Shown in pieces: positions 8,147 through 59,507 of a stretch of DNA of 64,000 bases. Position numbers and translations under genes: made by a program. Origin of the DNA: Spartobacteria bacterium. Lineage in GTDB: Bacteria > Verrucomicrobiota > Verrucomicrobiia > Chthoniobacterales > UBA10450. How positions within the stretch are numbered: position 1 is the first letter of the stretch; each line of letters opens with the position of its first letter. Location: NCBI GenBank assembly GCA_003134785.1, contig PLCN01000003.1, positions 124,001-188,000 of the forward strand. The letters run 5' to 3'. The notes under the pieces were generated by a model. It made no database searches and had not been told where the DNA came from. It saw only the letters and a list, made by a program, of their open reading frames with translations.

Positions 8147-8188
8147 TCCGGAAGGTGGGAGCGACCTCAGCGTCGCAACTGCGAGCGG

Positions 8189-9699: not shown

Positions 9700-9701
9700 G
9701 G

Positions 9702-11950: not shown

Positions 11951-12129
11951 GGAAGAGAGAAGCGGAACGAAAGAGATGGGTTTCGGAGAGACGCGATCGC
12001 GAGCTTTGGCGCTGTGTGCTATGCAATCTGCGTGCCGCATTCGATCATTCTAACTTAAACTGCTGCCGAATAGCTGCTTAAGAATTTGAGGTTGATTGTG
12101 CGCCCGGCCCATTGTTCCCGCGTTCGGGA

Positions 12130-12723: not shown

Positions 12724-12730
12724 AGAAGAT

Positions 12731-33633: not shown

Positions 33634-36600
33634 TTATTGCAGATTATAGGCTTCGACTAATCCAATGCCCGTGGTGTTGTTCTTACCCCGAACGACGGCA
33701 GTGTATGCACCCGGAACAAGCGTCGCGAGAATCGCTGGTTCGCGGTCGTTTCCCGGTGGGATCGTCGTTGCCGTGATCTCGTTCTCCTGCGTTTCGCGCC
33801 AGTTGTCGTTGCTGATCGAGCTGCCGTTGGCATCATGCAATTCCAGCATGGGATCGTCCAACGCACCTTGCACACCAAAGGTCGTCAAGGTGGGACCTAT
33901 CGCGCGAACCAGAATCGTCGCCGGTTCGGTTCCGCCGATAATGAAACCGCCGATCATCACGTTATCGCCGGTGTCGATGAAGCCGCGCGTCGAAATGTTC
34001 GCCAACTTCGCCGCTGAGCTGGAGTCGAGGTCATAGACTTCAGCCAGACCTATACCCGTCTCGCCGTGCGCCCCTTTTACGATAGCGGTGTAGTTACCCG
34101 GGGTTAGGGTAGCGACAATCACCGACTCGCGGGGATCGCCGGGCGCAAAGCCGTTCGGAATCTGGCTGACGTCGCCGTCCTGCCAGTTATCGTTCGTCAC
34201 AACGCTGCCATCGGGCTGGTGCAATTCCAGCAAGGGATCGGAGAGCGTTCCGGAAATGCCAACATTCGAGAGCGACGGCCCTATCCCGCGGATCAGCACC
34301 TTCTTGCTCGAGCCGCTGGAACCTTTGACAATGAAACCGGCAATCAAAACATTGTCGCCGCTCAGCACTTTCATCCTGGTGGAAATGTTCAGCGGTTGGC
34401 CACTCGTTGGCTGGATAAGATTCGGGTTGATGGTAGCCGTTGCGCCATCGCTGCCAAAGCTCAATTGCGCATTGGAGCTGACGGAAGAGAAAGAGCCGCT
34501 CACAGACGTGTAGCCTAAGGGACTGAAGGTGTCGGCGGAATCAGGCGTGTAACCATTGATGGTTCGCACATCAAGCTTGCCATTGAGCGTAGCGTTGCCA
34601 GTGACTTGGAGCTGGTCGTACTGTGTCGGAGCTGGTCCGCCATTCTCGATAATCAGGGTACCTTGCGCGCCCTGCGTGTAATCGCCTGAAATGGTGATCG
34701 AGCCCGCGGAATGTCCGGGGGAGATGAAGCCACCATTATTAGTAACGTTTCCGTAGATAACACCCGTGCCGGATAAAACACCGCCCTGGAGCGATACCGG
34801 CGCGACCAGGACGATGTTAGTAAGATCGGTCTCACCGCTAGCTTGAACAAACCCGGTGGGCGCTGCGGTAGCGGTGGCATCCGATAAACGAGACGAAGAA
34901 CTACTTCCTTCCGCCGCCGAGCCTGGAATTATGATACCAGCCCCGTGCTCGCTGATCAGGCTCGCACCATCCTCTCCTATGAGACTTCCGCCGTCATTTG
35001 AAATCACGCTGGCGCCATCGCTATTGATCAGGCTGGCGCCGTCGTGACCGATCAAAGTGCCGCCGTCATGACTGACAATCCCCGCACCGTCCTGACTGGT
35101 GATACTTCCGCCGTCGTGGCCCACGAACCCCGCGCCGTCACTGTTAATGATCTTGCCGTGATTTTCAAAACTACTCGCGACGACTACTCGCGAATGTTCC
35201 ACCGCGCGCGGGTTAGCCGGCGGAGGTTGCGGCGGCCGCGGTGGCACACTCGGCCGGTGAAAGACCCAGTTGCCGAAGTTCCTGATCGCAGTCAAGACAC
35301 CATCAAGGAATCCGTAAGGCTGCATCCCCGGGGACCCAACGCTTTGTTTTCCAATCACACTACCATTACTTTTCGGAAGCGGAACCAAGCTGCCGCGACC
35401 GGCCAATTTGAACGTGCCGAGGTTCACCAACGCGCCGCTTACGGGCACGTCACTATCGGAATCGATCACGAGCGTTCCATCAGGTCCTACGATGGCGGTG
35501 AGGTTTCTTAGCTGTCCCCCGGTGATGGAAAAATGTCCTGTGACGTCTAGTTGTCCCCCGGCTCCGCTGATCGAACCGCCGTTGAGGGAGACAGCGTAGA
35601 CCAACACATCTTGCGTAATGGAAGCGCTCGCCGATCCTACAATCGCGAAATCGTTCGGGCCGGGCACGCCGTTGTTTCCCAGTCCATCGCTCCAGTTGTT
35701 TGCATCGTTCCAGTTCCCAGAGCCAGTCATGGTGAGCACTCTGCCTCCGGAAGGCGCTATCCGGATGTAGACGGCATCAGCATAACCAATGATGCCGAGA
35801 TCGTCCCTGGCAAAGGCCTTGATGATGTGATCGCCGGCGACGTTTGTCGTGTATTGCGTTATAATACTCGTCGCGCCATTCTCGGCGTGGTCGAGCACAG
35901 CTCCGTCGTAAATGACACCAACCGTCTTGATTTGGCGACTGTTCGAAGTGGATGCTTGGGCGCCAAACCTTAACGTGCCTAGTGAAACAACAAACGGGTG
36001 ATCGGGATCGAGCCCGGACCCGCTACCAGCTTCAGGTAACGGAGGGAGAACGTCAACGTGAGGCGGATCGCCCACCGCTACACCAGTCACACCAATCGCA
36101 TTAGAAAGGCTGTCGATGTGGCCTGACGCAGTCGCGACGGCGCGGAAGTAGACGGCATCGCCTGGAGGATAGCTGTTCGAGTCGAGATAGAACTGCGTCG
36201 GGTCGGAGTAAGGCAGCATGTGCCCGGAATTGCCGTCGCTTAGGTCCGCCCAGCTCGCTTCAATATGCGGTGTGGTTGTAGCTTGAATGCGCAGAACGAT
36301 ACCGGCAGGAGGCGAAGTTTCCGTTACTCTGAATTTGATGGCCGCGCCCGTTCCGGTCGTTCCCAGGTAAAGGGTCGTGGGACCGAGATGTGGTGTGCTC
36401 GCTGCCAGATCGAATGGGCCCACATTATTGGAGATACTGTCCGGGTAACCTGGGGCTGAAGAAAGAGCGCGAAAATAGACGCCATTCTGCAAAGGGTAGT
36501 TGGTGGAGTTAAGAACAAACTCTTTCGCAGTCTTATCCAGCGTCATGTAACCGTTGCTCCCATTAGGCAGATCGTTCCAACTACTTTCGGTTCCAGGTGT

Positions 36601-37581: not shown

Positions 37582-37670
37582 AGAGGTCTTTCGCGAGTTG
37601 AGTGCATTTACCCAGCAACGCGACAAAACCGGATAAAACAGACCAGAAAAGTTTGAGATTTTTTCGACGC

Positions 37671-37699
37671 TCGACGTTTTCGCCGGATCGGAGTAAAAT
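37671..37699 (+). promoter_or_regulatory. Promoter of sigma/kinase unit 1, leaderless-type
   Basis: TCGACG at 37671-37676, a 17-bp spacer and TAAAAT at 37694-37699. The ATG of the sigma gene lies 6 nt later (37706). The same TAAAAT-to-ATG distance is seen at unit 2. Confidence 0.4.
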
Positions 37700-37705
37700 T
37701 TGGCA

Positions 37706-38311
37706 ATGGGAGCGGGGGCTATGGCGGCAGAGGATTCGCAGGCATTTCACGCCGGCCTCATCGCCGATTTGGCGTCATCAGCGTCTGAAGCCGAGATTGC
37801 TTCCTTACGGACAATGTTGCCGGCAGTGTATGATGAACTTCGCCGGGTTGCAGCGGGTTTTCTGCGAGACGAACGCCCCGGTCACACTCTCCAGCCGACG
37901 GCGCTCGTGCACGAGGCTTATCTGCGCATGGCAGATCAGCGGCAGCCGACCTGGCAAAACCGCGCGCATTTGCTCGGAATCTTCGCGCGGATGATGCGCC
38001 GAATTCTGCTCGATCACGCCGGCGCTCGTACCGCCGCCAAGCGCGGCGGCAAAGACGCCGTGCGCATCACACTTGACGATGCCCTGCAAGTTTACGAGCA
38101 GCACGATCTCAACCTGCTCGACGTGGAAGAAGCACTGCGCCGCCTGGAGCGTATCGATCCCACGCAAGCCAAGATTGTTGAGATGCGTTTTTTCGGAGGC
38201 TTGACCATCGAAGAAATCGGCAAGGTCCTTGATATCTCTCCCACGACCGTAAAACGCGAATGGGCGATAGCGAAGCGGTGGCTTCAGCGTGAACTAACGG
38301 CCGGCGCCTAG
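37706..38311 (+). CDS. ECF-type RNA polymerase sigma factor, TIGR02999-like (unit 1)
   Basis: The product is about 201 residues. Sigma region 2 runs from MLPAVYDELRRVAAGFLRDE to ILLDHAGARTAAKRGG, with LQPTALVHEAYLRM at its centre, a signature of the TIGR02999 ECF family. Region 4 is at IDPTQAKIVEMRFFGGLTIE followed by IGKVLDISPTTVKREWAIAK, the helix-turn-helix for the -35 element. It would direct RNA polymerase to a small regulon. No anti-sigma gene is nearby; instead a Ser/Thr kinase gene starts 4 bp downstream, so kinase control is likely. Alternative starts are TTG 37700 and ATG 37724. Confidence 0.9.
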   Translation: MGAGAMAAEDSQAFHAGLIADLASSASEAEIASLRTMLPAVYDELRRVAAGFLRDERPGHTLQPTALVHEAYLRMADQRQPTWQNRAHLLGIFARMMRRILLDHAGARTAAKRGGKDAVRITLDDALQVYEQHDLNLLDVEEALRRLERIDPTQAKIVEMRFFGGLTIEEIGKVLDISPTTVKREWAIAKRWLQRELTAGA

Positions 38312-38315
38312 CACT

Positions 38316-41051
38316 GTGCTAAGGAGTAAGACAGAGCAGCTATCCGCGGAACGCTGGCAGGAGGTCAAAGCGATCGTCGCCGCCGCGTTGGAGGAAAAGA
38401 CTCCAGCGGCGCGAGCTAGTCTTGTCGCGCAACGTTGCAACAATGACGCGGCGCTTTTGCGCGAAGTGGAATCGCTTCTCGCCCAAACCACCGGAACCCT
38501 GGAGGACTTCGTGGAACGAGCGAGCGCGCCCTTGCGGCGCGACCTGCCGCCGGTGGGTCCAGGTTATCGCATGGGTGCGTATGCCGTTATCCGTGAGTTA
38601 GGCCGTGGTGGAATGGGCGCCGTTTATCTGGCGGAGCGAGCGGACGGAGAGTTCGAAAAACAGGTTGCCATCAAACTTCTGAAGCGAGGGACCGACACCG
38701 ACGAGGTGCTGCGGCGGTTTCGTGCGGAGCGCGAGATCCTCGCGCGCCTCGAGCATCCTTTCATCGCCCGCCTTTTCGACGGCGGAACAAGCGAGGACGG
38801 CCTGCCTTATTTCGTCATGGAATATGTCGCCGGCTCGCCGGTGACAGAGTTTTGCGCCGCGAACGCGCTTTCACTCGGGGACCGGCTCCGCCTTTTCCTG
38901 AAGATCTGCGCCGCCGTCCAGTTCGCGCACCAGAATCTTGTGGTCCACCGGGATCTAAAACCGGCTAACATTCTTATCACGGGCCAGGGCGAACCCAAGC
39001 TGCTCGATTTCGGCATCGCGAAACTGCTCGCGCCAGGTGGTGGCAACCTGAGCCTTACTATCTCCGAGCAGCAGCGCCTGACACCGGCATACGCGTCGCC
39101 CGAACAAGTGCGCGGCGAGCAGATTACCACCGTCAGTGATGTTTATTCGTTAGGTTCGCTTCTCTACGAACTGCTCACCGGAAAAAATGCCCACAATTTT
39201 TCGACTCTGCATCCGTCACCCACCGAGTTACAACGCGTAGTAGGCGAACAAGTGCCACAGCGTCCGAGTGCAGCGGCCAGCGATGCATTCACCCGCCGCC
39301 AGCTGTGCGGAGACCTCGACAACATCATTCTCAAGGCGCTACGCAAGGAGCCTGCGCGCCGCTACTCCAGTGCTGGTTCGTTCGCGGAGGACGTTCACCG
39401 GCACCTCGAGAATCTTCCAGTGCGGGCAAGCAAGGACACCATCGCGTATCGCACTTCAAAGTTCATTCAACGTAACAAACTCGGCATGGCGGCCGCCGCG
39501 CTCGTTGCCTTGGCCTTGATTGCTGGAAGCATCACGACTGCCTGGCAGGCACATCAGGCGCGCCTCGAGAAAGCAAAGGCCGAAGAGCGATTCAGCCAGG
39601 TTCGCAGGCTCGCTCACTCGCTTCTATTTGATTATCATGACGCGATCGCGGCTCTACCTGGATCAACCGCGACGCGCCAGAGGTTAGTTAAGGACGGCCT
39701 GGAATATCTCGACAACTTGGCGAAGGAGGCGGGCAACGATCGGGGTCTGCTGCGCGAGCTAGCGGACGCTTATGAGAAGGTTGCCGCGGTCCAGGGCGGC
39801 GCCGCCATCTCGAAGCGCGGCGCTTTGCTTTCATCGTCTAACCTGGGCGACACCCCAGGTGCTACGGCGAGTTTGGGGAAAGCTCTCGCCATCCGCGAAA
39901 AACTAAGCGCCTTGGAGCCGGGCAATCGGGATATCCGAAACGAGCTGGCATTTTGCTATGCAACCCTGGCTGGCAACTATTTGCTCTCCGGCCCTCCCGA
40001 GAAAGTGATCGATTACACCCATAAATCGATTCCTTTGCTTGAATCGTTGCTGGCCGGGGAACCATCGAACGAAGAGCTTCAATACAGGTTATCGCTGGTT
40101 TATCTCGAATTGGCCAAGGCCCTGGGCGGTTCCGGCGTCGCCAACCTTGGGGATACAAAGGGTGCCTTGGAATACATGGATAAGTCTCGGGTTCTTTTGG
40201 AGCGATTAACCACACAGTTCCCGGCCAACCTTGACTATCAGCTCCTGCTCGGAACCATCCACAACATGCTCGGTTTTTTGCTTTTCACGGAGGGCAAACA
40301 GAACGATGAGTTGCAAGAATATTTGAAGGCTGTTGAGATCGACCGCGCCCTGGTCCAGGCGGACCCGGGCAACACCGCCTATCGGCGAGAGTTGGCGGTG
40401 CAACTGGGGAACGCCGGCTCGACCATGGTTCGGCTCGGCGACAAAGCCGGTGCGCTTCAACGGGCGAAAGAGGCGCTGTCAATCTACGAATCGCTAGCGG
40501 CCGCAGACCTAAATGATGCCAGCATTCGCCGCAATCTGGCTGTGGGGTATCGAAACGTTGCCATGGCCTTGGGAGCGTCCGATCCCGCGGGAGCGCTGGA
40601 TAATTTTCGCAAAGCGCTCCAAATTTTCGCTGAACTCAATGACAAAGATCCAAATAATGCCGACCTTCGACGCCAATGGGCCGTCGTTTATCTCTACCGC
40701 AGCCGCTTCCAATTCGAGATCAAGGAATTGAGCGACGCGGCTAACAGCGCGCTTGAAGGCATCAAAATCGAGCAGGCACTTGTCACGACCTCACCCACGA
40801 ACGCGAGTGCCCGGAACACTCTAGCGCAACTGTACCTGCAGGCTGGGAAAACTCATGCAACGCAGGCATCCACGATCACGAGCGCCGGCAGTCAACTAAC
40901 CGAAGAATGGCGCGCAGCGAAAGAAGCGTATCAGAAGAGCCTCGCCATTTATCAGGACATGAAAAGCAAAGGAACGCTCAGCGCCTCCGACGCCACCAAA
41001 CCGGATGAGATCGCCCGTGACATCGCGAATTGCGATCAAGCTTTGCGGTAA
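38316..41051 (+). CDS. Membrane Ser/Thr kinase with external TPR tail (unit 1)
   Basis: The 911-residue protein has an N-terminal helical module (about 1-75, WQEVKAIVAAALEEKTPAAR), then a Hanks kinase at about 88-365: LGRGGMGAVYLAERADGEFE, VAIK lysine near 120, VVHRDLKPANIL near 211, LLDFGIAKLL near 231 and YASPEQ near 260. A transmembrane helix (about 389-409, GMAAAALVALALIAGSITTA) is followed by about 490 residues of TPR-like helices. The TPR tail should be periplasmic and act as the sensor. The GTG start lies 4 bp after the sigma-factor stop. It has all catalytic residues, so it is predicted active and likely to phosphorylate its sigma factor. Confidence 0.9.
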   Translation: MLRSKTEQLSAERWQEVKAIVAAALEEKTPAARASLVAQRCNNDAALLREVESLLAQTTGTLEDFVERASAPLRRDLPPVGPGYRMGAYAVIRELGRGGMGAVYLAERADGEFEKQVAIKLLKRGTDTDEVLRRFRAEREILARLEHPFIARLFDGGTSEDGLPYFVMEYVAGSPVTEFCAANALSLGDRLRLFLKICAAVQFAHQNLVVHRDLKPANILITGQGEPKLLDFGIAKLLAPGGGNLSLTISEQQRLTPAYASPEQVRGEQITTVSDVYSLGSLLYELLTGKNAHNFSTLHPSPTELQRVVGEQVPQRPSAAASDAFTRRQLCGDLDNIILKALRKEPARRYSSAGSFAEDVHRHLENLPVRASKDTIAYRTSKFIQRNKLGMAAAALVALALIAGSITTAWQAHQARLEKAKAEERFSQVRRLAHSLLFDYHDAIAALPGSTATRQRLVKDGLEYLDNLAKEAGNDRGLLRELADAYEKVAAVQGGAAISKRGALLSSSNLGDTPGATASLGKALAIREKLSALEPGNRDIRNELAFCYATLAGNYLLSGPPEKVIDYTHKSIPLLESLLAGEPSNEELQYRLSLVYLELAKALGGSGVANLGDTKGALEYMDKSRVLLERLTTQFPANLDYQLLLGTIHNMLGFLLFTEGKQNDELQEYLKAVEIDRALVQADPGNTAYRRELAVQLGNAGSTMVRLGDKAGALQRAKEALSIYESLAAADLNDASIRRNLAVGYRNVAMALGASDPAGALDNFRKALQIFAELNDKDPNNADLRRQWAVVYLYRSRFQFEIKELSDAANSALEGIKIEQALVTTSPTNASARNTLAQLYLQAGKTHATQASTITSAGSQLTEEWRAAKEAYQKSLAIYQDMKSKGTLSASDATKPDEIARDIANCDQALR

Positions 41052-41099
41052 GCAATTTGGGGCTTGGATGTGTCTCGTGATCTCAGCTACCGCGCAACC

Positions 41100-44000
41100 T
41101 TATTGCAGATTGTAGGCTTCGACGACGGCGATGCCGGTCGTGTCGTTCTTACCACGAACGACGGCCGTATAATTCCCGGGTGCGAGTGTGGCCAGAATCG
41201 CTGCTTCGTTATCATCGCTCGGCGGAATGGTAGTCGCCTGGATTTCACTCTCCTGGGTGCTACGCCAGCCTTCATTGCTGATGACGCTGCCATTCGAATC
41301 GTGCAGCTCGAGAGTCGTGGCCTGTAACGCGCCTTGCAGGCCGAACTGAGTGAGCGAAGGGCCTATCGCCCGAACCAATATCTTTGCCGGCTCAGTCCCG
41401 CCAATGATGAAACCGCCGATCATGACGTTATCACCTGTGTTCACAAAGCCGCGCGTGGCTATGTTAGCCAGCTTCGCTGTCGACGCAGTGTCGAAGTCAT
41501 AGACTTCCACGAGGCCAACACCCGTCTCGCCGTGCGCGCCCTTTAAGATCGCAGTGTAGGCTCCCGGTGCCAAGGTCGTGTAGATGACTGATTCGAGATC
41601 ATTGCTCGGCGCGAACCCAGGAGGGATGTCTGCCGCGTTTGGAGCTTGTTTCCAGTTGTCGTTCGTTACGACACTCCCATCTGGATTATGTAGCTCGAGG
41701 AACGGATCTGAAATGGTGCCAGACACGCCGAAGTTAGCTAACGAAGGTCCTATGCCCCGAATCAATACCTTCTTAGTTGAACCAGCTGGCCCAGTGATAA
41801 TGAAACCAGCGATAAGAACATTGTCGCCGCTCTGGATCTGAAGACGCGTCGCAATGTTGAGTGGCTGGCCGGTCGACGGTTGAGGCTTCGTGATGTCCAC
41901 CGAACTGACCAGTCCAGTCGCGTTCAACGTCACCTGCGCGTTTGAACTTACTGCCGCGAACGTGCCGCTGACCGCACCGTAGCCGATTGGGTTAAACGTA
42001 TCTGCGCTACTCGGTTGGTAGCCATTGATCGTCCGCACATCGAGGTTGCCGCCCAAGGTCGCTGTGCCTCCGACCTGTAGTTGGTCGAATTGATTCGGAT
42101 TCGGGCCGCCATTCTCGATGATCAACGTGCCTTGCGTGCCTTGCGTGTAGTTCCCCGTCACCGCAACCAGACCCGCGGAATGCCCTGGCGCAATATAGCC
42201 GCCGTTCACTGTCAGATCTCCAGCGATAACACCGGAGCCGCTCAGCACGCCGCCATTAACCGTCACCGGCCCGGTTATCCTGATCAAGTTCATGTCAGTC
42301 TCGCCAGCTGTTTGGATGAACCCGGACGCGGCTGTTGCTGCCTTCACCTTGCCCGAACTATCAGCGGCCGTACCGCCACTGACGTCAAAATTGCCGCCAC
42401 CTTGAGCGACAAGATTGCCGCCACCTTGAGCGACAAGGCTCCCGCCGTCGTTTGAGATGACACCTCCCCCATGCTCCGAGATGAGAGTACCGCCATCCTG
42501 CGTAATGAGGCTCCCGCCATCTTGCGTAATAAGCCCGCCACCGTCCTGGCTGATCAGACCCGGTATACCGGAGGCGAGAATGCTTCCGGTGTTAGCCAGC
42601 GTAGCAGTGGAGATAGTTTGGTCGGTCGGCGCCAGCCCGAGAGATAGTCCAGCCTTTAAAAGTGGCATTTGAAAGTTGGTAGTCCCCTGGTTTAGAAAAT
42701 ATACCAAACCAGCGATCCCTCCGCTCCCATGCATTTGCCAGTTGCCGTAATTATAAACATCCCCGTAGAACGGAAAATCAACGTCATTGATCATGTTGAC
42801 TGTCGCCGTGCTCGGAATTTCCAAGATCAACCCTCCTTCGATTCCCCCTCCACTAATAGTCAGAAGGTGATCGACCTTAAGAGAGCCTTTGACATCCCTG
42901 ATATGGCCACCGCTGATGATGAGCGAGCCGACTTCGACCTTATCATCAGCATCGATTAAGACTGTCAAGGAACTTATGATCGCTACATCTGAGGGCCCGG
43001 GAACCCCGTTACCACCCTGACTACCGCTCCAGGCGGTCGGATCGCTCCAGTTCTTGCCGTCGCCGATAAGCGTGTAGGTATTGCCGCCAGTCGAAGCTTG
43101 TTGAACGCCGGTCTTACCAGTCACACTGCTTGCTTTGCTTGAAACAGCATTCGCCGGTTCCACCAGGACGTAGATTGCACCTGTCGCCGCTCGGCCGGTT
43201 GCGCCAAGGTCATCGATCGCCACCGCCTCTATAATATGAAGACCCGATACGCTCGTCACGTAGTCAATAGATATGTGTGTGAGATCGCTTACCTGCTTGA
43301 TTGCCCCGCCATCGAACAGAACACTCAAGGCATGGACCTGCCGATTGCTGAAGGCATCTACAGCGATTGGGAGGCTCACGGAGCCATTCGCGTCCAAAAA
43401 TACGACGATCGGATGGTTCACGTCCTGACCAGAAGTCCCGCCTGCCCCTGTAGGTGACGCGAAGGCCACTGTGGGCGGGGTATCGCTGAGAAAGTCATAA
43501 GCCCCGATGATGTTGGAGATGCTATCGACGCTGCCCGCCGCAGTGGCAACAGCCCGGAAGTAGACGGCAGTCCCTGCCGGATAGTTATTCATCAGCAGAA
43601 CGAATTGTTCCGGATCGGTGGTTTGAGTCATCTGCCCAGAGCCACTCGTCAGATCAGTCCAGCTCGCCTCGCTTCCCGGAGTCGTCGACGTTTGCACTCT
43701 CAAAGCTATACCGGATGGAGCAGGCGTCTCTGTAGCTCTGAAGTCCAGATCCGCCCGAATGCCATTGGCGACGAGCCGAAGGATGGTCTGTCCAGGAGGA
43801 GCAAGATTCGTCGTGAGATTGAATGGCCCGACGGCGGTGGAAATGCTGTCCGGATAACCCGGCGCAGCCGAAATCGCGCGAAAGTAGACACCGCCACTTA
43901 AAGGATAGTTGGCTGATGTTAGGACGAATTGCTGGCTGGAGGAATCATAAGCCATGAATCCATTAGTTCCATTCGGCAGTGGTTGCCAGCTCGATGCATC

Positions 44001-46394: not shown

Positions 46395-46477
46395 AATTTG
46401 AATCTCTGCTCTTTGTCTGATGAACGCGGGAAACCGGCGCGAAAAGTCCCAAAAAAAATTTGCAAATTTTTGCTGAC

Positions 46478-46506
46478 TGGACTCTATCGCTGGAAACGCG
46501 TAAAAT
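46478..46506 (+). promoter_or_regulatory. Promoter of sigma/kinase unit 2, leaderless-type
   Basis: TGGACT at 46478-46483, a 17-bp spacer and TAAAAT at 46501-46506, with the ATG 6 nt downstream at 46513. The -10 element and distance match unit 1 exactly, while the spacer sequences differ. Confidence 0.45.
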
Positions 46507-46512
46507 CCCGGG

Positions 46513-47097
46513 ATGCCAGCCGCCTCTTCTCTCGCTCCAGATTTCATCGATGAACTCACATCGACGCTCTCTGAAGCAGACGCGGAAACGCTTCGCGGGA
46601 TGTTACCGGCGGTTTACCACGAGCTGCGCCGGCTGGCCGCCGGCTTCCTCCGGGATGAGCGTTCGGACCACACACTTCAGCCGACCGCGCTGGTGCACGA
46701 GGCTTATCTGCGAATCGCCGATCAGCGCCAATCGACCTGGCACAATCGCGCCCAACTGCTCGGCATTTTCGCGCGAATGATGCGGCGCGTCCTGATCGAT
46801 CGTGCCAACGCCCGTCTTGCCGCAAAACGCGGAGGCAAAGAGGTGGTCCGAATCACCCTGGACGATTCCCTGGAGATCTCCGATCGACACGAGCTGAATT
46901 TGGTCGACGTGGATGAAGCCTTGCGTCGCCTGGAAACTTTCGCTCCAGAACAAGCAAAGATCGTTGAGATGCGGTTCTTCGGCGGCTTGACGATCGAGGA
47001 GATCGCGAAAGCCTTGGAGATTTCCCGGATGAGCGTAAACCGGAGATGGGCGGTTGCGAAGCGCTGGCTAAAGCGGGAATTGTCGGAAGCGACTTAG
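46513..47097 (+). CDS. ECF-type sigma factor, TIGR02999-like (unit 2)
   Basis: The 194-residue protein is a paralogue of the unit 1 factor. Region 2 includes MLPAVYHELRRLAAGFLRDE and LQPTALVHEAYLRIADQRQS. Region 4 is EQAKIVEMRFFGGLTIEEIA with a helix-turn-helix ending SRMSVNRRWAVAKRWLKREL. The recognition helix differs from unit 1 (SRMSVNRRWA against SPTTVKREWA), so the two may bind different -35 sequences. The stop is 4 bp before the kinase start. There is no adjacent anti-sigma factor. Confidence 0.9.
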   Translation: MPAASSLAPDFIDELTSTLSEADAETLRGMLPAVYHELRRLAAGFLRDERSDHTLQPTALVHEAYLRIADQRQSTWHNRAQLLGIFARMMRRVLIDRANARLAAKRGGKEVVRITLDDSLEISDRHELNLVDVDEALRRLETFAPEQAKIVEMRFFGGLTIEEIAKALEISRMSVNRRWAVAKRWLKRELSEAT

Positions 47098-47101
47098 GGC
47101 G

Positions 47102-49870: not shown

Positions 49871-49903
49871 CTTCTGAAATACTGTCGTCAGTCCCCGCTG
49901 CTC

Positions 49904-52900
49904 TTATTGCAGATTGTATGCTTCGACGACGGCGATGCCGGTGGTGTCGTTCTTACCACGAACGACGGCGGTATAATTCCCGGGAGCGAGTGTCGCCAGG
50001 ATCGCGGCTTCGTTATCGTTGCTCGGCGGAATGGTCGTCGCTTGGATTTCACTCTCCTGGGTGGTACGCCAGCCTTCGTTACTGATCACGCCGCCGTTCG
50101 AATCGTGCAGCTCGAGAGTCGTGGCCTGTAACGCACCTTGCAGGCCAAACTGAGTGAGCGAAGGGCCTATCGCCCGAACCAATATCTTTGCCGGCTCAGT
50201 CCCCCCGACAATGAAACCTCCGATCATGACGTTATCGCCCGTATTCACAAACCCACGGGTAGCTATGTTCGATAGCTTGGCGGTCGAGGCCGTGTCGAAA
50301 TCATAAACTTCCGCCAGACCTATGCCGAATTCGTCGTGAGCGCCCTTTACGATCGCGGTGTAGGCTCCGGGTGACAAGGTCGTGTAGATGGCCGATTCAA
50401 GATTATTACCCGGCGCGAACCCGGCCGGGATGTCTGCCGCATTAGACGCTTCCTGCCAGTTGTCGTTAGTTACCACACTTCCATCCGGGTTATGCAGCTC
50501 CAGGAAAGGATCAGGAATTGTTCCGGCAACACCGAAATTCGCAAGGGATGGACCTATGCCTCGAATGAGCACCTTCTTACTCGATCCAATCGGCCCCGTG
50601 ATGATGAAACCGGCGATAAGAACGTTGTCGCCGCTTTGGATCTGAAGACGCGTAGCGATGTTTAGCGGCTGGCCGTTCGTCGGGTTAGGCTTGGTGGGAT
50701 CGATCGACGTCAGCAAACCGGTCGCGTTCACAGTAACTTGCGCATTCGAGCTCACCGAGCCGAAGGTCCCGCTGACCGAACCGGCGCCTAGTGGACTGAA
50801 GGTATCAGCAACGTCAGGTGTGTAACCGTTGATCGTCTTTATGTCGAGTTTGCCGCCGAGGCTGGCAACGCCGCCAACTTGGAGCTGATCAAACTGGCCC
50901 CCGCCTGGCCCGCCTCTTTTGACGATCGTGGTTCCATTCGCCCCTTGAGTGAAGTTACCGCTCACCGCCAGGCGACCCGGAAATGAAGAACCACCTGGCG
51001 AGATGTAACCGCCGTTGTTCGTCAGATCACCTTGAATGATTCCGGTGCCGCTAAGGACGCCGCCGTTAAGCGTTACCGGACCAACAATCGTACACGCGCT
51101 CGGGTTGGTCTCACCACCGTTTTGCGTATAGCCCGGAGCAGCAGCCACAGTTGCCGTCTTCATCCTGGCCGTCCCCTGTAAATTACCGGCGCCGGACGCG
51201 ACAATGCCTATGCCGTGGTCGCTTAGGACGGTGGCGCCATCATTTGCGACGACACTGGCGCCATCATTTGCGACGACACTGCCGCCATCATTTGAGATAA
51301 CACCTCCTCCATGCTCCGAAATGATACTACCGCCGTCATGGGAAATGAGAGTAGCTCCATCGTTACCGATCAAGCTCGAGCCGTCGTTACCGATCAACGC
51401 CGTCAGCGTGCCGGTCATAAGCCCGTTGCCTGTCACCGAAGCCGCCTGCAGGATTCGGAGTGCGGCCGCCGGATCGGTTGCAGCGTTGAGCGGGATTTGC
51501 AGCGGCGTCAGCCAGTTAATCGTCCCGTTGTTTTCGATCTGATCCGCTCCGGTGAGGCCGGCGCTGCCATGCACATTAAGCGTGCCAAAGATGAGAAGCT
51601 CACCGCCGAAATTCACATCCTGCGGATTCAGTAGGTTGGCGGTGCCGAAGATGTCCAGGACCGAGTTCTGAAAACTGCCGCCGAGGAGCGTGATCGTTCC
51701 ATACACGTCGAATACGCCGGGGCCAATGATGACGCCGCCCACACCGAGGGTGACGGAGCCAGCGACGACGTCATTGCTACACCGGATCGTGGACGAGCCG
51801 ATGATTGCCAGATCGTTCTCGCCCGGCACGCCCGGATTACCGTTCTCGTCGCTCCAAGTGCTTGGAGTGTACCATTCGCCGCCTGAGTTAGCGACGGTGT
51901 AGGTGTGGCCCGCCGGTGTGGCAGCCGCAGCATCAGCACCTGTTGCACGCTCCGCTTTGGCTGTACTTTGGGAAGGAATAACGCGAACGTAGATAGCTCC
52001 GCTGCCTGCCCGGGCTCTGGCGCCAAGATCGTTGATAGCCACGGCTTCATAAACGTGGTCACCGACGGTGGGCGTAAAATAGGCGATGTAAACGGCGTTC
52101 GGATCCGAACTGCCAGGGTACTCAGTCACCGTCGCCCCATTGACTTGAAGTTGGACTGTCTTTAGGGCGCGCGCACTTTGCACCGTCGCGGCAAAGGCTC
52201 CGCTGTCTACCGCCACAATAATGGGATGGTCCGAATCATGGCCATCTCCGCTTCCGGACAATGGATTAGCGGTCGTAACAGTGACGACCGGAGGAACCAG
52301 GCCGGTAATATCGAACGGCCCCATGATATTCGAAATGCTATCCAGATATCCCGAGGCGCTAGCGATGGCGCGGAAGCAGACGCCCTGAGTCGTTGGGTAG
52401 TTATTGAACAGAAGAAGGAAGTGCTTCGGGTTCTTCGGGTTGGTGCTCTGCGTCATATAGGAATTACCGTTGCTCAGGTCGTTCCAGCTAGCTTCATCAC
52501 CGGGCGCTGTGCTGGCCTGCACCCGCACCGACATGCCGGCCACCGTTGCTGATTCAGTCGCGCGGAAATAAAAGTCAGCAATCGTGCCATTGCCGGTGAA
52601 ATTCAGACTGGTCGAGCCGATCTGCGCTTTAGCGCTCGTGAGATTGAATGGCCCGACGACATTCGAAATGCTGTCCGGATAAGCTGGCGCACTCGAAATC
52701 GCGCGGAAGGAGACGCCGCCACTTAAAGGATAGCTGGACGACGTCAGGACGAATTGCAGGTTCGAAACGTCATACACCATTGATCCACCAGTTCCATTCG
52801 GCAAATCGGCCCAGCTCGATGGATCGTTAGGCGTAGTACTGGCCTGAACGCGGACGCTAAGACCTGCTGGCGTCCCGCTTTGCTGGGCAAGGAACGCGAG

Positions 52901-55198
52901 TGGCGTGCCATTGACAACGGTCCCTCCTGAGGGATAGCCATCCACGCTGAAGTAAGTGTCCGAAAGGCCCCCATGAGCGGGCACCGGCGGCGGTAAGCGA
53001 GTTCCGTTTAGGAGAACGGAAACGGTGCCGTCATTCTCGTTTGTCACGAAGAGCTGACGTGAAGTGCTATTGAATGCCATGCCGGCGGGGGCGGTGCCGA
53101 CGGAGATTTCGCCAAGATATGAATAATTGTTGGCAGCGCTATATACGGTGACCCAGCCCGGGAACCCGCTTCCATCGGCATTGTCGAGGACATAGACAGT
53201 GTTCGAGACTTCATCGACCGCGACGGCCCCGACGGCATCTCCTCCCGTATTCGACGAGATGTTGTCGATCGTTTGCGAGCCGTTCGTCGCGCCGTCGATC
53301 ACGGTGAAGCTATTGGCCACCGAACCCGCTGCTGTGTTCGCCACGTAAATCTTGTTGTGCTTCTGGTCGACCGCCGTGGGTACCGGGCCCGCACCCGATT
53401 CGACCGATGCTGCCACCACATTATAGCTGTCCCCGTCCAAGACCGTGACGTGACCGCCACCGTCCAGGATGCCAAGGTAGATGCGACCTGTCGCTGGATT
53501 AGCAACCATGCCGAAAACACTGCCGGTAAGCGCAGCGGTCGCAACGAGCGCATTACTATCGAGTCCGTAAACATACATTGTTCCTTGAGTTGCAACAAGC
53601 AGGTGACGACGCGTGTCATCCACCGCCACCGCGTAGATGTAAGGACTCCCTACGGAGATGGTCGTGATTAACGCGTTGGTCGATCCGTCCAGGACATCGA
53701 CGACAGACGCCCGACTTCCATCGACAGGATCGATCACCACGCGCGGGAGGTAAACTCGATTGACTGCTTCGCTAACGGCGATCAGCCTTGCGTACGACTG
53801 GCCAAAATAGCCGACACCATTGACTGCGGGCTGCACCGTTACACGCGCACTGACTGAGTCGGTAGCTCCATCAATGACCAACAGCTCCGGCGCCTGAGCA
53901 TCTGCGACATAGGTGCGGTTTGTTTGCCTGTTAACTGCGACTGTTCCGGGTTGATAGCCGATGGTAATCTTCGCAAGCGAGCCGTCGTTCACATTCAAGA
54001 CGCCGACCTGGTTCAGCAACTCGAAGCGTGCGCCATTCGAACTGTAATCGAGCAGGTAAATCCGGCTGCTGTTGGTGCTATCGATTGCCAACTTGGCCGC
54101 GCCTTGCGTGAAACTTCCCACAACAGCAAGGCTCGTCGCGGAAATCACAGTGATCGTCCCGTTAGTATTGTATGGAGTAGGTGTTCCGACATAGACCTTT
54201 CCCCCTGCCGCATCCACCGCGATCGATTTTGCTCCGGAAGGTACGCCGGCAGTTGTCGAAGCGACGATCGCGCCGCTGCCGTCGAAAACGATGAGTTGAG
54301 TGGTTCCGTTCTTATCTTGCCCGACCGCGTAGATCCGCCCATTTGCGCTGTCATAGGCCGCGTCAGCCGCGTAGAAAGTGGGGATCGGTAGTGTCGTCAA
54401 CGAATCGTTCGAGCTATCAATCAAGACGACCGGGCCAAAAGGAAAAGCCAACATTTTGTTCGAAGCGGGGATCGCCACAATCAGATTGGCGCCATTTCCA
54501 GACGGCATCTGAATCGTTTTCATGACGCTATGATTCGGGCCGTCGACGACGGCAACAGTGCCGTAATAATCGCTGACGTAGACTTTGTGATTCACTGGAT
54601 TTACCCCTATCCCTGCATTGCCGTCCGGCTGCGAAATTGGCAATGGTACGGCGGTATTCGGATCGATGGTATCCGTAGCGCCGTCGCCGGTTACCAGGAC
54701 CAGGCGTTGAGTGGAGCTATAACCAACTTCGCTTACGTAGTACACTTTGTTGCCCCCGGCTGTTGTGCTGTCGTCCACAGCCATCCCATAAGGGACCAAT
54801 AAACCTCCGTCAGAGGTCACGGTATTCTTTGGGTCCCGGATCCCGGTGACGAACGAACCGGTAGCAGTATTAATTACTGCGGCAGCGCAGGGCTGCAGAT
54901 TAACAAGGTGGGGTGCGAGCGTATAGAGCTTGTGCGTCGCCTGATTAACTCCGAACTGCCCCGGCGAATACGCGCTCCCGCCGGGGGACAGCTCAATCGT
55001 GCTGATCAACGACGTGCCAGGCGGCGTGGCCGCGCGCAGCGATGACGGTGAGCCGATCAACCCCGCCGCGGCTAAACAGAGCGCCGCCCATTTTGCAGCC
55101 TGGAACAAGGTCGCGTCCCCCCAAATGCGACGGGAAATGAATCTGAAATGTCGGAAGCGCGCCGTAGGGTCGGCAAGAATTGCGATCGGTGTTTTCAT
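49904..55198 (-). CDS. Giant secreted protein 3: beta-propeller head, octapeptide array, doubled C-terminal domain
   Basis: The product is 1764 residues, the same length as giant protein 2, with long stretches of near-identity. It starts MKTPIAILADPTARFRHFRF; a basic extension of about 35 residues precedes the hydrophobic signal WAALCLAAAGLIGSPSSLRA. Residues about 55-738 are YVTN-like propeller repeats. Then come AQQSGTPAGLSVRVQASTTP-type domains, an Ig-like domain, a 'GGEWYTPSTWSDENG' segment, the octad array (about 1266-1334), 'GNFTQGANGTTIVKRGGPGG' beta-helix and two RAIGPSL domains, ending VEAYNLQ. Most divergence from giant 2 lies in the middle. It is divergent from sigma/kinase unit 3, with 33 bp to the end of kinase 2. 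Confidence 0.85.
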   Translation of the reverse strand: MKTPIAILADPTARFRHFRFISRRIWGDATLFQAAKWAALCLAAAGLIGSPSSLRAATPPGTSLISTIELSPGGSAYSPGQFGVNQATHKLYTLAPHLVNLQPCAAAVINTATGSFVTGIRDPKNTVTSDGGLLVPYGMAVDDSTTAGGNKVYYVSEVGYSSTQRLVLVTGDGATDTIDPNTAVPLPISQPDGNAGIGVNPVNHKVYVSDYYGTVAVVDGPNHSVMKTIQMPSGNGANLIVAIPASNKMLAFPFGPVVLIDSSNDSLTTLPIPTFYAADAAYDSANGRIYAVGQDKNGTTQLIVFDGSGAIVASTTAGVPSGAKSIAVDAAGGKVYVGTPTPYNTNGTITVISATSLAVVGSFTQGAAKLAIDSTNSSRIYLLDYSSNGARFELLNQVGVLNVNDGSLAKITIGYQPGTVAVNRQTNRTYVADAQAPELLVIDGATDSVSARVTVQPAVNGVGYFGQSYARLIAVSEAVNRVYLPRVVIDPVDGSRASVVDVLDGSTNALITTISVGSPYIYAVAVDDTRRHLLVATQGTMYVYGLDSNALVATAALTGSVFGMVANPATGRIYLGILDGGGHVTVLDGDSYNVVAASVESGAGPVPTAVDQKHNKIYVANTAAGSVANSFTVIDGATNGSQTIDNISSNTGGDAVGAVAVDEVSNTVYVLDNADGSGFPGWVTVYSAANNYSYLGEISVGTAPAGMAFNSTSRQLFVTNENDGTVSVLLNGTRLPPPVPAHGGLSDTYFSVDGYPSGGTVVNGTPLAFLAQQSGTPAGLSVRVQASTTPNDPSSWADLPNGTGGSMVYDVSNLQFVLTSSSYPLSGGVSFRAISSAPAYPDSISNVVGPFNLTSAKAQIGSTSLNFTGNGTIADFYFRATESATVAGMSVRVQASTAPGDEASWNDLSNGNSYMTQSTNPKNPKHFLLLFNNYPTTQGVCFRAIASASGYLDSISNIMGPFDITGLVPPVVTVTTANPLSGSGDGHDSDHPIIVAVDSGAFAATVQSARALKTVQLQVNGATVTEYPGSSDPNAVYIAYFTPTVGDHVYEAVAINDLGARARAGSGAIYVRVIPSQSTAKAERATGADAAAATPAGHTYTVANSGGEWYTPSTWSDENGNPGVPGENDLAIIGSSTIRCSNDVVAGSVTLGVGGVIIGPGVFDVYGTITLLGGSFQNSVLDIFGTANLLNPQDVNFGGELLIFGTLNVHGSAGLTGADQIENNGTINWLTPLQIPLNAATDPAAALRILQAASVTGNGLMTGTLTALIGNDGSSLIGNDGATLISHDGGSIISEHGGGVISNDGGSVVANDGASVVANDGATVLSDHGIGIVASGAGNLQGTARMKTATVAAAPGYTQNGGETNPSACTIVGPVTLNGGVLSGTGIIQGDLTNNGGYISPGGSSFPGRLAVSGNFTQGANGTTIVKRGGPGGGQFDQLQVGGVASLGGKLDIKTINGYTPDVADTFSPLGAGSVSGTFGSVSSNAQVTVNATGLLTSIDPTKPNPTNGQPLNIATRLQIQSGDNVLIAGFIITGPIGSSKKVLIRGIGPSLANFGVAGTIPDPFLELHNPDGSVVTNDNWQEASNAADIPAGFAPGNNLESAIYTTLSPGAYTAIVKGAHDEFGIGLAEVYDFDTASTAKLSNIATRGFVNTGDNVMIGGFIVGGTEPAKILVRAIGPSLTQFGLQGALQATTLELHDSNGGVISNEGWRTTQESEIQATTIPPSNDNEAAILATLAPGNYTAVVRGKNDTTGIAVVEAYNLQ
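51195..51400 (-). repeat. In-frame 24-bp repeat array, giant protein 3
   Basis: About eight octads: GNDGSSLIGNDGATLI, SHDGGSIISEHGGGVI, SNDGGSVVANDGASVV and ANDGATVLSDHGIGIV. The order of variant units differs from giant protein 2, although EHGGGVISNDGG is shared. Confidence 0.8.
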
Positions 55199-55313
55199 TG
55201 GTCTGACCCGCTATTTGCTATTTGTTTTGGAGTTGTGTCGCCGCGCCGTCATGGCGGGAAAGACAACGCGTCCTAATACTTGTCGCAGCGAAGGAGCCCG
55301 GATCGGGCTAAGA

Positions 55314-55319
55314 TAAAAT
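55314..55319 (+). promoter_or_regulatory. Candidate -10 element of unit 3
   Basis: TAAAAT lies 9 nt before the GTG at 55329. No good -35 hexamer is seen at 16-18 bp upstream, unlike units 1 and 2. Confidence 0.25.
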
Positions 55320-55328
55320 ATAATAAAT

Positions 55329-56015
55329 GTGACTTCCTCGACACAAAGGCGCCCCGGCGTATGGTTCCGGATGCCACCTTCCGGTGAGCCTCGTCCCCGA
55401 GGCCTGGACTCGGCTGTGTCCAGGGGCGATTCAGCGCAAGGGTCCGAGGCAGCAGAGACTTTCGCTGCGCTGGCCGAAGATCTTTTCCCCGCGGGCGTCG
55501 ACACGACAGCCCTGAATGAGGCTTTGCCGGGAATGTATGAGGAGTTGCGAGGGCTGGCGGCTGGCTATCTCCGTCACGAACGGCCGGATCACACGCTGCA
55601 ACCGACCGCGCTTGTCCACGAATCCTATTTGCGCCTGGTCAGGCAGCACGCGGTCGATTGGAAAGATCGCCTCCAGTTTCTTTCCATCGCCGCGCGAATG
55701 ATGCGGCGGATCCTTTCGAATTACGCTACGGCGCGCGGCGCCACGAAACGCGGAAGCGGCGAGCCGCTGTTGCAACTGGACGCAGCTTTGGATTTCTACG
55801 ACCGGGAAGCTTTGAGCATTGCCGCGGTCGATGAGGCCTTGCGCGGCCTCGAAGCGATGGACGCTCGGCAGGCGCAGATCGTGGAGCTTCGCTTTTTTGG
55901 CGGCCTGACAATCGTAGAAACCGCGGAAGTCATGCACCTTTCGCAGGGCACGGTGAAGCAAGAGTGGAATACCGCGCGACTCTGGCTGCAACGTGAAATA
56001 TCCACGGAGACGTGA
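55329..56015 (+). CDS. ECF-type sigma factor, TIGR02999-like (unit 3)
   Basis: The 228-residue protein has an N-terminal extension of about 45 residues compared with units 1 and 2; starts at GTG 55329 or ATG 55371 (MPPSGEPRPRGLDSAVSRGD) are possible. Region 2: MYEELRGLAAGYLRHERPDH and LQPTALVHESYLRLVRQHAV. Region 4: ARQAQIVELRFFGGLTIVET with HLSQGTVKQEWNTARLWLQR. The recognition helix differs from both other units. The kinase gene starts 54 bp downstream, a wider gap than the 4 bp in units 1 and 2. The factor is more divergent overall, so unit 3 is probably the oldest copy or of separate origin. Confidence 0.88.
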   Translation: MTSSTQRRPGVWFRMPPSGEPRPRGLDSAVSRGDSAQGSEAAETFAALAEDLFPAGVDTTALNEALPGMYEELRGLAAGYLRHERPDHTLQPTALVHESYLRLVRQHAVDWKDRLQFLSIAARMMRRILSNYATARGATKRGSGEPLLQLDAALDFYDREALSIAAVDEALRGLEAMDARQAQIVELRFFGGLTIVETAEVMHLSQGTVKQEWNTARLWLQREISTET

Positions 56016-56069
56016 TCGACGATTGTCGCTCGCGATTACGCATTCGAGCATGAGTAGCCGCGTTGTGTC

Positions 56070-58457
56070 ATGACGCCAGACCGTTGGCAGCAGGTAAAGC
56101 AGACCCTGGCGAGTGCGCTCGAAAGAGAGGATGCCGGCGAGCGCGCATTGTTTCTTGCCGCCGTTTGCGCGGATGACCCCTCATTGCGACGCGAAGTAGA
56201 ATCACTGCTCGAGCAACCATCGGATAGATTCGACTACTGCGCGGACATCGGCGGGCTCGCTCACCAAGGACAAGCCGACGCGGCGAATTCCGGACGGCGC
56301 ATCGGAGCTTACGAACTTGTGCGGGAGCTCGGCCGCGGCGGTATGGGAACAGTTTGGCTAGCGAAACGCGCCGATCAGCACTTCGAGAAGCTTGTTGCTA
56401 TCAAACTCCTGAAGCGTGGGACGGATACGGACGAAGTCCTGCGCCGCTTTCATTCGGAGCGCCAGATTCTGGCGCGCCTCGAACATCCGAACATTGCGCG
56501 ACTGCTCGACGGCGGCACGACAGACGGCGGACTGCCGTATTTCGTTATGGAATTCGTCGAAGGCACGCGGCTGACGGACTTCGTTCGCGAGCGGCAGCTC
56601 TCCATTGTCGATCGCGTCCAATTGTTCCTGAAAATCTGCGCGGCGGTGCAATTCGCTCATCAAAATCTCGTAGTTCATCGCGACCTCAAACCGGGCAATA
56701 TTCTCGTCACCGCCGAAGGCGAACCCAAATTGCTCGACTTCGGGATTGCGAAGCTGCTCGCGCCCGGGGACGAGCCTTGGGAAATGACCATGATAGGTCG
56801 TGAGCGGCTCACTCCCGGTTATGCGTCGCCCGAGCAGGTGCGCGGCGAACCGGTGACGACAATGAGCGATGTCTACGCGCTCGGCGCGCTGCTCTACGAA
56901 ACGCTCACGGAGCAGCCGTCTCATCGATTTCCCAGCTCGCCCCCAACTCCGACCCAGATTTTGCGTGTCGTTTGTCATGAGGAACCTATGCGGCCCAGCC
57001 TCGCCGCCAAACAACCGGAAATGCGCCGCCATCTTCGTGGCGATCTGGACACCATAATCCTGCGCGCACTCTCGAAAGCTCCGCAACGCCGTTACCTCGG
57101 CGCGGGAAATCTCGCGGAAGATCTCAAACGTTATCTCGACGGCCGCCCTGTGCATGCCCGCCGAGACACGGCAGGTTATCGCACGGTCAAGTTTGTCGGT
57201 CGCAATAAAACTGCAGTCGCGGCAGCCGCCCTGGTTCTCGCGGCGTTGATCGGCGGCACGGCCAGTACCCTCTGGGAGGCGCGCCGGGCCGAGCGACGAT
57301 TTCAAGATGTCCGTCGTCTCGCCGATTCGTTTCTGTTTGAATTCGACGATGCCATCGCGAACCTTCCGGGCGCGACACCGGCTCGGCATCTGATTGTTGG
57401 TCGAGCGCTGCAATACCTCAACAGCCTTACTCAGGAGGCCGGTCACGACCGGACGTTGCAGCTCGAACTCGCCCAAGCCTACCTGAAAGTCGGGGATGTT
57501 CAGGGCAAACCCTACACGGCAAACCTGGGCGACACGGCCGGTGCGATCAGCAGTTACGAAAAGGCCGTTCGGATCGCGGCGCCTTTATCAGCGCGAGAAC
57601 ACGGCTCCGCGTCCACGGCAGCACGACGCATCGCCTCCCAGGCATACGAAAATCTCGGCCTCGTCCAGTGTCGCTTGAGTCAGTTGGAAAGCGCGTCGCA
57701 AAATTATCGCCTGGCCTTGCAACTCGGAGAGAATCTTTTAGTTGATGATCCCACTCACGCGGAAGAATGGCAGCGACTGATCGCAAGCTGCCAGCTCGGC
57801 TTGGGCGACGCGATCATGGCTGGCAATCACATCCGAGAAGATGTTGCGGTGTATCGTGCGGCGCTGGCGCACTACCGCGAGGCGCTGCCCATTTGCGAGC
57901 GACTCGTTGCCTCCGCGCCCACCAGTGAGCCAGATGCCTACCGGTTGATGCAAACCTGCTCACGGATCGCCGCCATGCTTACGGAAATCGGCGCCGCCAC
58001 CCATGATGCCGGGACCTTTGCAGAGGCATTTGCATTTCACCAGCGGACGCTGGCCCTCACCGAAGCCCCCTTCCGGGCAGAGCCCGAAAGCTTTCCGCGC
58101 CGGCGCGACTTTGCCGGCGAACTGGTGATGACGGCGTACGCCCACGTTCTGGCGGATGACGACCTAACGAACGCGGCGACCAATTGTCAGCGCGGCCTGG
58201 AAATCGCGCAGGCGCTCGCGAAGGCCGACCCAAGCAATGTTGAGGCGCGGCAGGACCTGAGCCTGGCCTACTACGTCACAGCACGTCTTATGCAGAAACA
58301 GGGCGATGCCAGGCGCGCCGCCGCGAATTACGATCAGTCCATTGCCATTCTCGAATCATTAACTGCGGCGCATCCCGACAACGTCGAGGCCGCTTCCGAC
58401 CTCGTGCGTGCCAGGAAAGGATTAACTGAGCTTAGACGCGCCGAGGCCGCACCTTAA
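56070..58457 (+). CDS. Membrane Ser/Thr kinase with external TPR tail (unit 3)
   Basis: The 795-residue protein has the same plan as units 1 and 2: a short N-terminal module (TPDRWQQVKQTLASALERED), kinase with LGRGGMGTVWLAKRADQHFE, Lys near 112, VVHRDLKPGNILV near 202, LLDFGIAKLLA near 222 and YASPEQV, then a TM helix near 382-402 and TPR-like repeats. The C-terminal part is over 100 residues shorter and divergent. All catalytic residues are present. The ATG at 56070 gives a compact N-terminus. It is convergent with the remnant of a fourth giant gene. Confidence 0.88.
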   Translation: MTPDRWQQVKQTLASALEREDAGERALFLAAVCADDPSLRREVESLLEQPSDRFDYCADIGGLAHQGQADAANSGRRIGAYELVRELGRGGMGTVWLAKRADQHFEKLVAIKLLKRGTDTDEVLRRFHSERQILARLEHPNIARLLDGGTTDGGLPYFVMEFVEGTRLTDFVRERQLSIVDRVQLFLKICAAVQFAHQNLVVHRDLKPGNILVTAEGEPKLLDFGIAKLLAPGDEPWEMTMIGRERLTPGYASPEQVRGEPVTTMSDVYALGALLYETLTEQPSHRFPSSPPTPTQILRVVCHEEPMRPSLAAKQPEMRRHLRGDLDTIILRALSKAPQRRYLGAGNLAEDLKRYLDGRPVHARRDTAGYRTVKFVGRNKTAVAAAALVLAALIGGTASTLWEARRAERRFQDVRRLADSFLFEFDDAIANLPGATPARHLIVGRALQYLNSLTQEAGHDRTLQLELAQAYLKVGDVQGKPYTANLGDTAGAISSYEKAVRIAAPLSAREHGSASTAARRIASQAYENLGLVQCRLSQLESASQNYRLALQLGENLLVDDPTHAEEWQRLIASCQLGLGDAIMAGNHIREDVAVYRAALAHYREALPICERLVASAPTSEPDAYRLMQTCSRIAAMLTEIGAATHDAGTFAEAFAFHQRTLALTEAPFRAEPESFPRRRDFAGELVMTAYAHVLADDDLTNAATNCQRGLEIAQALAKADPSNVEARQDLSLAYYVTARLMQKQGDARRAAANYDQSIAILESLTAAHPDNVEAASDLVRARKGLTELRRAEAAP

Positions 58458-59340: not shown

Positions 59341-59507
59341 CCAATTGTCCACCGTGGCCCCTATCCCCGCCTCGCGATGCGTGCCTTTCCCTATCGCCGT
59401 GGAGTTACCTGGAGCGTTAGGACTCCTTGCGCGATGATCCACATCTTGCCAAACTCAATCAGAGACGCAACGCAACCGAATGATGTTAGGTTCGAGGCCT
59501 TTTCCTT

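Follow-up and report, generated by a model that had tools for sequence, protein, structure and literature searches.

Gene content of the array

The 64-kb stretch of DNA analyzed here (the window), from contig C10 of the 4.39-Mb genome of a soil Verrucomicrobiota bacterium, contains three consecutive units, each comprising a gene for a giant exported protein on the minus strand and, divergent from it on the plus strand, genes for an ECF sigma factor and a TPR-containing Ser/Thr kinase (Table 1). The original prediction, that the same three-gene set occurs three times in a row, is borne out in gene order, orientation and domain content. It had also stated that no anti-sigma gene is present, and none was seen inside or beside the units, which consist of sigma, kinase and giant only; an FecR-type anti-sigma factor or regulator was likewise not found between or beside them. 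The starts assigned to sigmas 1 and 2 (37706 and 46513) stand, but that of sigma 3 (55329) is revised below. At the right edge of the array, the remnant of a fourth giant gene is abutted by an inverted partial copy, 447 bp long (58898–59342), of a topoisomerase gene located at 20570–23350; it matches the C-terminal part of that gene with 89% DNA identity.

Table 1. Genes, promoters and domains of the three units, in window coordinates
Feature	Coordinates	Strand	Description
Giant exported protein 1	33634–37581	-	1315 aa; laminin-G-like at the N-terminus, followed by an Ig-like/beta stalk containing DGG repeats and a C-terminal tandem beta-sandwich domain that ends in VEAYNLQ
Putative ECF promoter of giant 1	37617–37644	-	GGTCTGTTT-N9-TTGTCGCGTT; -10 box ends ~36 nt upstream of ATG
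Sigma-70-like promoter of sigma 1	37671–37699	+	TCGACG-17-TAAAAT; 6 nt upstream of ATG 37706
ECF sigma 1	37706–38311	+	TIGR02999/PF07638; region 2.2 is HTLQPTALVHE
Membrane Ser/Thr kinase 1	38316–41051	+	911 aa; N-terminal extension, kinase domain, TM 389–407, TPR tail; top PDB match 9EED (PknS)
Giant exported protein 2	41100–46394	-	1764 aa; YncE-like beta-propeller followed by stalk and C-terminal domain
C-terminal domain of giant 2	41103–41888	-	Modeled as two beta-sandwich repeats, pLDDT 91.4; weak likeness to ColG s3a–s3b collagen-binding pair
Putative ECF promoter of giant 2	46423–46450	-	GGGACTTTT-N9-TTCCCGCGTT
Sigma-70-like promoter of sigma 2	46478–46506	+	TGGACT-17-TAAAAT; 6 nt upstream of ATG
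ECF sigma 2	46513–47097	+	TIGR02999; 72% identity to sigma 1
Membrane TPR Ser/Thr kinase 2	47102–49870	+	922 aa; TM 399–417
Giant exported protein 3	49904–55198	-	1764 aa; 67% identity to giant 2; YncE-like beta-propeller
Putative ECF promoter of giant 3	55283–55310	-	GAGCC class with one-base shift, TAGCCCGAT-N9-TTCGCTGCGA; weaker case, from by-eye comparison with clade members
Sigma-70-like promoter of sigma 3	55338–55365	+	TCGACA-16-TATGGT; 5 nt upstream of ATG 55371
ECF sigma 3, corrected start	55371–56015	+	TIGR02999; 49–51% identity to sigmas 1 and 2
Membrane TPR Ser/Thr kinase 3	56070–58457	+	795 aa; TM 383–401
3' remnant of fourth giant gene	58603–58905	-	92.7% DNA identity to 3' end of giant 2

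Giant exported proteins

About 1040 C-terminal residues are common to all three giants, preceded by a laminin-G-like head in giant 1 and by YncE-like beta-propellers in giants 2 and 3. An N-terminal hydrophobic segment was flagged by a simple hydropathy scan in giant 2 only and was recognized by eye in giants 1 and 3. The proteins would be located at the cell surface. The C-terminal 260 residues were modeled with high confidence as two beta-sandwich repeats (Table 1), and no NCBIfam or Pfam model matches this domain. Foldseek gave a low-TM likeness to a collagen-binding-type beta-sandwich pair (TM 0.29–0.32), not strong enough for a binding function to be assigned. The stalk model is of low confidence (pLDDT 69) and matches generic Ig/FnIII-like folds only, and the stalk family was found again in orthologous units of other genomes. 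The stalks of giants 1–3 carry eight-residue DGG repeats (e.g., ITQDGGSL; residues ~1337–1395 of giant 2), modeled as short regular strands, again at low confidence.

The C-terminal domain is encoded by ~104 genes in the 4.39-Mb genome, and the VEAYNLQ end by itself is not diagnostic of the cassette. One contig (C2:2397–57150) holds a run of ~17 genes with the domain, all on the minus strand and none with an ECF promoter.

Sigma factors and their adjacent kinases

Sigmas 1, 2 and 3 score 195.6, 182.4 and 167.6 bits against TIGR02999 (cut-off 126 bits), and their matches to PF07638, PF08281/PF04545 and TIGR02999 define two-domain ECF sigmas composed of regions 2 and 4. Region 2.2 contains QPTA in all three, with the DAED charges absent, and the threonine of this QxTA motif is near-invariant among relatives. 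In kinases 1–3, the VAIK, HRDLKP.N and DFG motifs are intact and the kinase domain is followed by a single hydrophobic segment and a TPR tail, an architecture from which the C-terminal TPR part would be extracytoplasmic. The top PDB match of kinase 1, PknS (9EED; 214 bits, compared with 154 for PknB), covers the N-terminal extension as well. The features of PknS/PknT-like kinases, namely an N-terminal extension, complete kinase motifs, one TM segment and a TPR part, are therefore all present, with the membrane orientation predicted.

The sigmas of group ECF43 lack DAED and carry a phosphorylated threonine (PMC8999054, PMC8103513), and PknS phosphorylates the sigma EcfK of Xanthomonas citri at the matching threonine (PMC13147305). 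Judged by features, the units here share the ECF43 traits that were compared: a two-domain sigma, an adjacent Hanks-type kinase, QxTA without DAED and no anti-sigma. TIGR02999 membership is not equivalent to formal assignment to ECF43. The original prediction had placed each sigma under the control of its kinase, a reading that fits the replacement of DAED by QxTA, the top structural match to PknS and the kinase adjacency, which is seen at 3/3 sigmas in the window and at 75/86 loci overall. Each sigma would accordingly be activated through phosphorylation by its own kinase. As EcfK T51A is still functional in X. citri, where linker sites matter (PMC13147305), the QPTA threonine may not be the sole switch. 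One sigma in the same genome (contig C20) has QSAA and yet retains both a kinase and a divergent giant, which counts against the proposed scheme.

The kinase could instead act on another target, with the sigma controlled otherwise, for example by transcription or by an unlinked anti-sigma. We regard this as improbable: an adjacent kinase is absent at 11 of 86 TIGR02999 loci, and at more in other phyla, but sigmas and kinases co-vary strongly (r 0.36–0.77, 0/1000 permutations), the motif of the sigmas is the uncharged QxTA, and PknS (9EED), the nearest kinase with a solved structure, phosphorylates the ECF sigma encoded beside it. The corresponding co-variation of sigma with the giant C-terminal domain is weak (0.06–0.26), and together the two comparisons identify the sigma–kinase pair as the stable core of the unit and the giant as its exchanged part.

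Promoters of the sigma genes

When the three divergent regions were scanned with the standard consensus, each yielded a single sigma-70-like promoter (0.1 expected in shuffles). These promoters end 5 or 6 nt upstream of the sigma ATG, and several orthologues are arranged alike. In unit 3, the promoter falls within the longer reading frame that begins at GTG 55329 and lies 5 nt from ATG 55371, as in units 1 and 2, so that the latter is the more likely start of sigma 3. This arrangement suggests that the housekeeping sigma transcribes the sigma–kinase pair, with control exerted after translation; the sigma–kinase transcripts are probably leaderless, or nearly so.

Putative promoters facing the giant genes

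A de novo search for a two-box motif, run on the divergent regions of 77 relatives and excluding this genome, found G.CCG.TTT and TT.CCGC.T separated by a 9–10-nt spacer (log-likelihood 308, against 112–134 in six dinucleotide shuffles). The -10 box lies at a median of 27 nt from the start of the divergent gene, and the -35 box is unlike the classical ECF AAC box. Applied to the 104 regions upstream of genes with the giants' C-terminal domain in this genome, the motif gave eight matches at a score ≥11, where 0.3 would be expected and the reverse strand gave none. Of these eight, four face a TIGR02999 sigma, one (C3:161837) lies in the cluster of a sigma and three are elsewhere. A single large regulon of many such genes was rejected, the promoter preceding only ~10 of 104.

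The two-box site sits in a divergent region common to both genes, ECF autoregulation is frequent (~55% by prediction, PMC8103513), and a run on the opposite strand reached a log-likelihood of 292 with a motif that recovered part of the site, so that log-likelihood does not decide direction; the site might then be an autoregulatory promoter of the sigma–kinase operon, with the giants as mere neighbors. Direction was assigned instead from giant genes without a facing sigma and from the distance to the giant start. Sites in the same orientation precede such genes at C3:5867, C3:161837 and C12:74732, behind co-directional genes or gene fragments, and the location of C3:161837 and C3:5867 behind co-directional genes indicates that the promoter points at the giant-type gene. 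Together with the position of the -10 box, the absence of reverse-strand matches at a score ≥9 and the sigma-70-like promoters that the sigmas already possess 5–6 nt before their ATG, this makes autoregulation a very unlikely function of the site.

The boxes vary by sigma clade (GTCCG, GGCCC, GGCGG, GCGCG, GATCA, GAGCC and GGTCT), and their similarity follows sigma identity in a Mantel comparison with r = 0.58 over all pairs and 0.23 among those <60% identical (0/2000 permutations), the permutations being uncorrected for phylogeny and neighboring DNA serving as the control: among pairs <60% identical, the next 18 nt downstream gave r 0.007 and the spacer 0.07. The promoter classes were handled separately, as a strict pattern of one class (GTCCGTTT..CCGCATT) matched only two sites genome-wide. 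The class 1/2 pattern has exactly two occurrences across the 4.4-Mb genome, one upstream of giant 1 and one upstream of giant 2; having been designed from these same sites, it speaks for the absence of further targets and is not an independent discovery. Allowing one mismatch, additional matches were at control level. The promoter of giant 3 was missed by the trained matrix (best match there 3.7) and was found by eye against clade members; the GAGCC-class site is present in altered form in its orthologue in a same-genus genome (G004).

The proposal that each sigma drives expression of its own giant is thus probable: in most divergent regions a conserved two-box promoter faces the giant, and it co-varies with the sigma, and on these sequence comparisons each sigma probably acts on the giant gene opposite. 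A single redundant regulon, in which sigmas 1–3 cross-activate all giants and the coats are not separately controlled, appears unlikely, though it deserves more weight than autoregulation. In its favor, identity between sigmas 1 and 2 reaches 72% and their promoters have a common TTnnCGCGTT -10 region, so that units 1 and 2 may cross-talk. Against it, the -35 boxes of these promoters differ (GGTCTG in promoter 1, GGGACT in promoter 2), promoter 3 belongs to another class, and the boxes track sigma clade family-wide.

Conservation of the unit

The genome encodes nine TIGR02999 sigmas, each of which is followed immediately by a kinase gene and faces a divergent gene for a large exported protein. 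In eight of the nine, the divergent gene carries the giants' C-terminal domain, against roughly 2% per sigma expected for a chance neighbor (our estimate from ~104 genes in 4.39 Mb), so the giant beside the sigma is not a chance association. In the ninth unit, that of the QSAA sigma on contig C20 (C20:58500–78499, local positions 5476–13286), the divergent gene encodes an HYR-domain protein of 1350 aa, and regulation may differ from that of the other units; its kinase tail is, by eye, WD40-like rather than TPR. Comparison of coordinates placed no gene with the giants' C-terminal domain within reach of five weaker ECF matches in the genome.

Relatives of the same genus mostly retain the neighborhood of sigma, kinase and giant that the original prediction proposed to search for, with a divergent gene of the giant type at 24 of the 31 loci with enough flank. 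Such a gene is found at 8/38 loci in other genera of the family and at 0/8 in other families of the order. At the family loci without it, the divergent gene is often exported-looking, with a PEP-CTERM-like or dockerin-like end (by eye), which suggests that the module works with more than one protein-sorting system across genera. Proteins with ends of these kinds face the sigma at loci of other genera (L024, L025, L034, L050, L065; L037, L057, L060, L063, L066).

Origin of the array

The original prediction attributed the array to expansion by tandem duplication. Three units with identical gene order, giants 2 and 3 that share 83% DNA identity over 3 kb, and the remnant of a fourth giant could be read as a recent duplication of the whole cassette, and yet the sigma tree contradicts this for units 2 and 3. 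All three sigmas belong to a single clade of that tree (100/100), on separate branches with orthologues in other genomes; sigma 3, only 49–51% identical to the others, represents a lineage separate from that of sigmas 1 and 2 (72% identical to each other), and orthologues of each lineage are found in other genera. That several genomes have orthologues of sigmas 1 and 2 also disfavors a very recent split of these two. In G020, a genome of another genus, one contig carries a sigma 1/2-type and a sigma 3-type gene side by side (L070/L151), from which we conclude that the array is old. G004 has an array of units related to 1 and 3 plus another, with unit 2 at a contig end. Finally, the 67% identity between giants 2 and 3 far exceeds that of sigma 3 to either other sigma, which points to later exchange of giants between units. 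A recent duplication therefore has little to recommend it, and the history of the array is one of gain, loss and giant exchange, of which the remnant at 58603–58905 is a trace.

Proposed mechanism and relation to known systems

Gene order and its conservation, the promoters, the co-variation of promoter with sigma and the QxTA motif provide the computed support for a self-contained module, in which kinase acts on sigma, sigma on a private promoter and the promoter on the facing giant. We consider this scheme likely as a whole. The sigma–kinase pair would probably be made continuously from its sigma-70-type promoter, with the sigma inactive as made, neutral QPTA replacing the DAED charges needed to hold core RNA polymerase. 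The membrane kinase would use its periplasmic TPR part to detect a signal from the envelope or from outside the cell and would phosphorylate the sigma, most likely at the QPTA threonine. The active sigma would then read its own variant of the private promoter on the opposite strand (a G....TTT box, a spacer of 9–10 and a TT..CGC.TT box), switching on the neighboring giant with its binding head, beta stalk and C-terminal tandem beta-sandwich.

For the kinase–sigma switch itself, the mechanism appears by analogy to be already known, of the EcfK/PknS and EcfP/PknT type. The EcfP/PknT pair of Vibrio, cited in the original prediction, is a valid parallel, but EcfK/PknS of X. citri, with its periplasmic TPR part, is closest in kinase architecture. 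EcfK–PknS (ECF43) likewise consists of an ECF sigma beside a Hanks-type kinase that bears an N-terminal extension, a single TM segment and a periplasmic TPR tail, lacks an anti-sigma, and includes the kinase that is the top PDB match here (9EED). It differs in driving a type VI secretion system, not one divergent giant, in its motif (QATE in EcfK, QPTA here) and in that no array of units is reported for it in the literature found, compared with three here. EcfP–PknT of Vibrio parahaemolyticus (ECF43) is similar, by description, in having an uncharged STTA/QxTA in place of DAED and a kinase-activated sigma, but it controls a polymyxin-resistance regulon.

FecI-type sigmas work with an FecR-type regulator and a TonB-dependent transducer. 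The units resemble FecI/FecR surface signaling in pairing one ECF sigma with one adjacent outer-surface protein gene; unlike in FecI/FecR, the regulator and the transducer are absent and a kinase stands in their stead. TIGR02999 sigma–kinase pairs are common in Acidobacteria and Planctomycetes, and phosphorylation is predicted from gene neighborhood for the STPK-linked groups ECF59, 61, 62 and 217 of Planctomycetes and for the TIGR02999 sigmas of Acidobacteria, as it is here; in those phyla, unlike here, a conserved giant-facing promoter was mostly not found. ECF groups other than ECF43 tend to retain the negative charges of region 2.2 (PMC8999054).

The new element is the repeated dedication of a switch to the giant exported protein that it faces, by way of a matched promoter. 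We found no earlier description of this arrangement; a search of the open-access literature returned no paper on these cassettes in Verrucomicrobiota. Few kinase-activated ECF sigmas have experimental proof in the literature found (EcfK, EcfP and one from Hyphomonas), and here one genome holds up to nine copies of the scheme, each with a concrete candidate target gene and promoter. The units form a natural set of differing sigma–promoter pairs in which kinase–sigma–promoter specificity becomes testable, and they provide a first handle on the regulation of large exported proteins in the mostly uncultured soil Verrucomicrobiota. Whether the scheme extends to soil Verrucomicrobiota generally we judge to be an even question: parallel, mutually insulated kinase–sigma switches with their own promoter codes and usually one target, the facing exported giant, might provide a separately inducible surface repertoire, with heads (lectin-like, YncE, Kelch or SBBP propellers, PATR, HYR, Ig-like) swapped between stable pairs.

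The sensor parts of the kinases vary as well, with FlgO/TolB-like and TPR parts combined, in place of TPR alone, at loci L013 (10428–13376) and L014 (4046–6631), as judged by eye. In the window itself, a 904-aa Ser/Thr kinase with FlgO-like and TPR parts is encoded at 14209–16923 on the plus strand, without a sigma neighbor.
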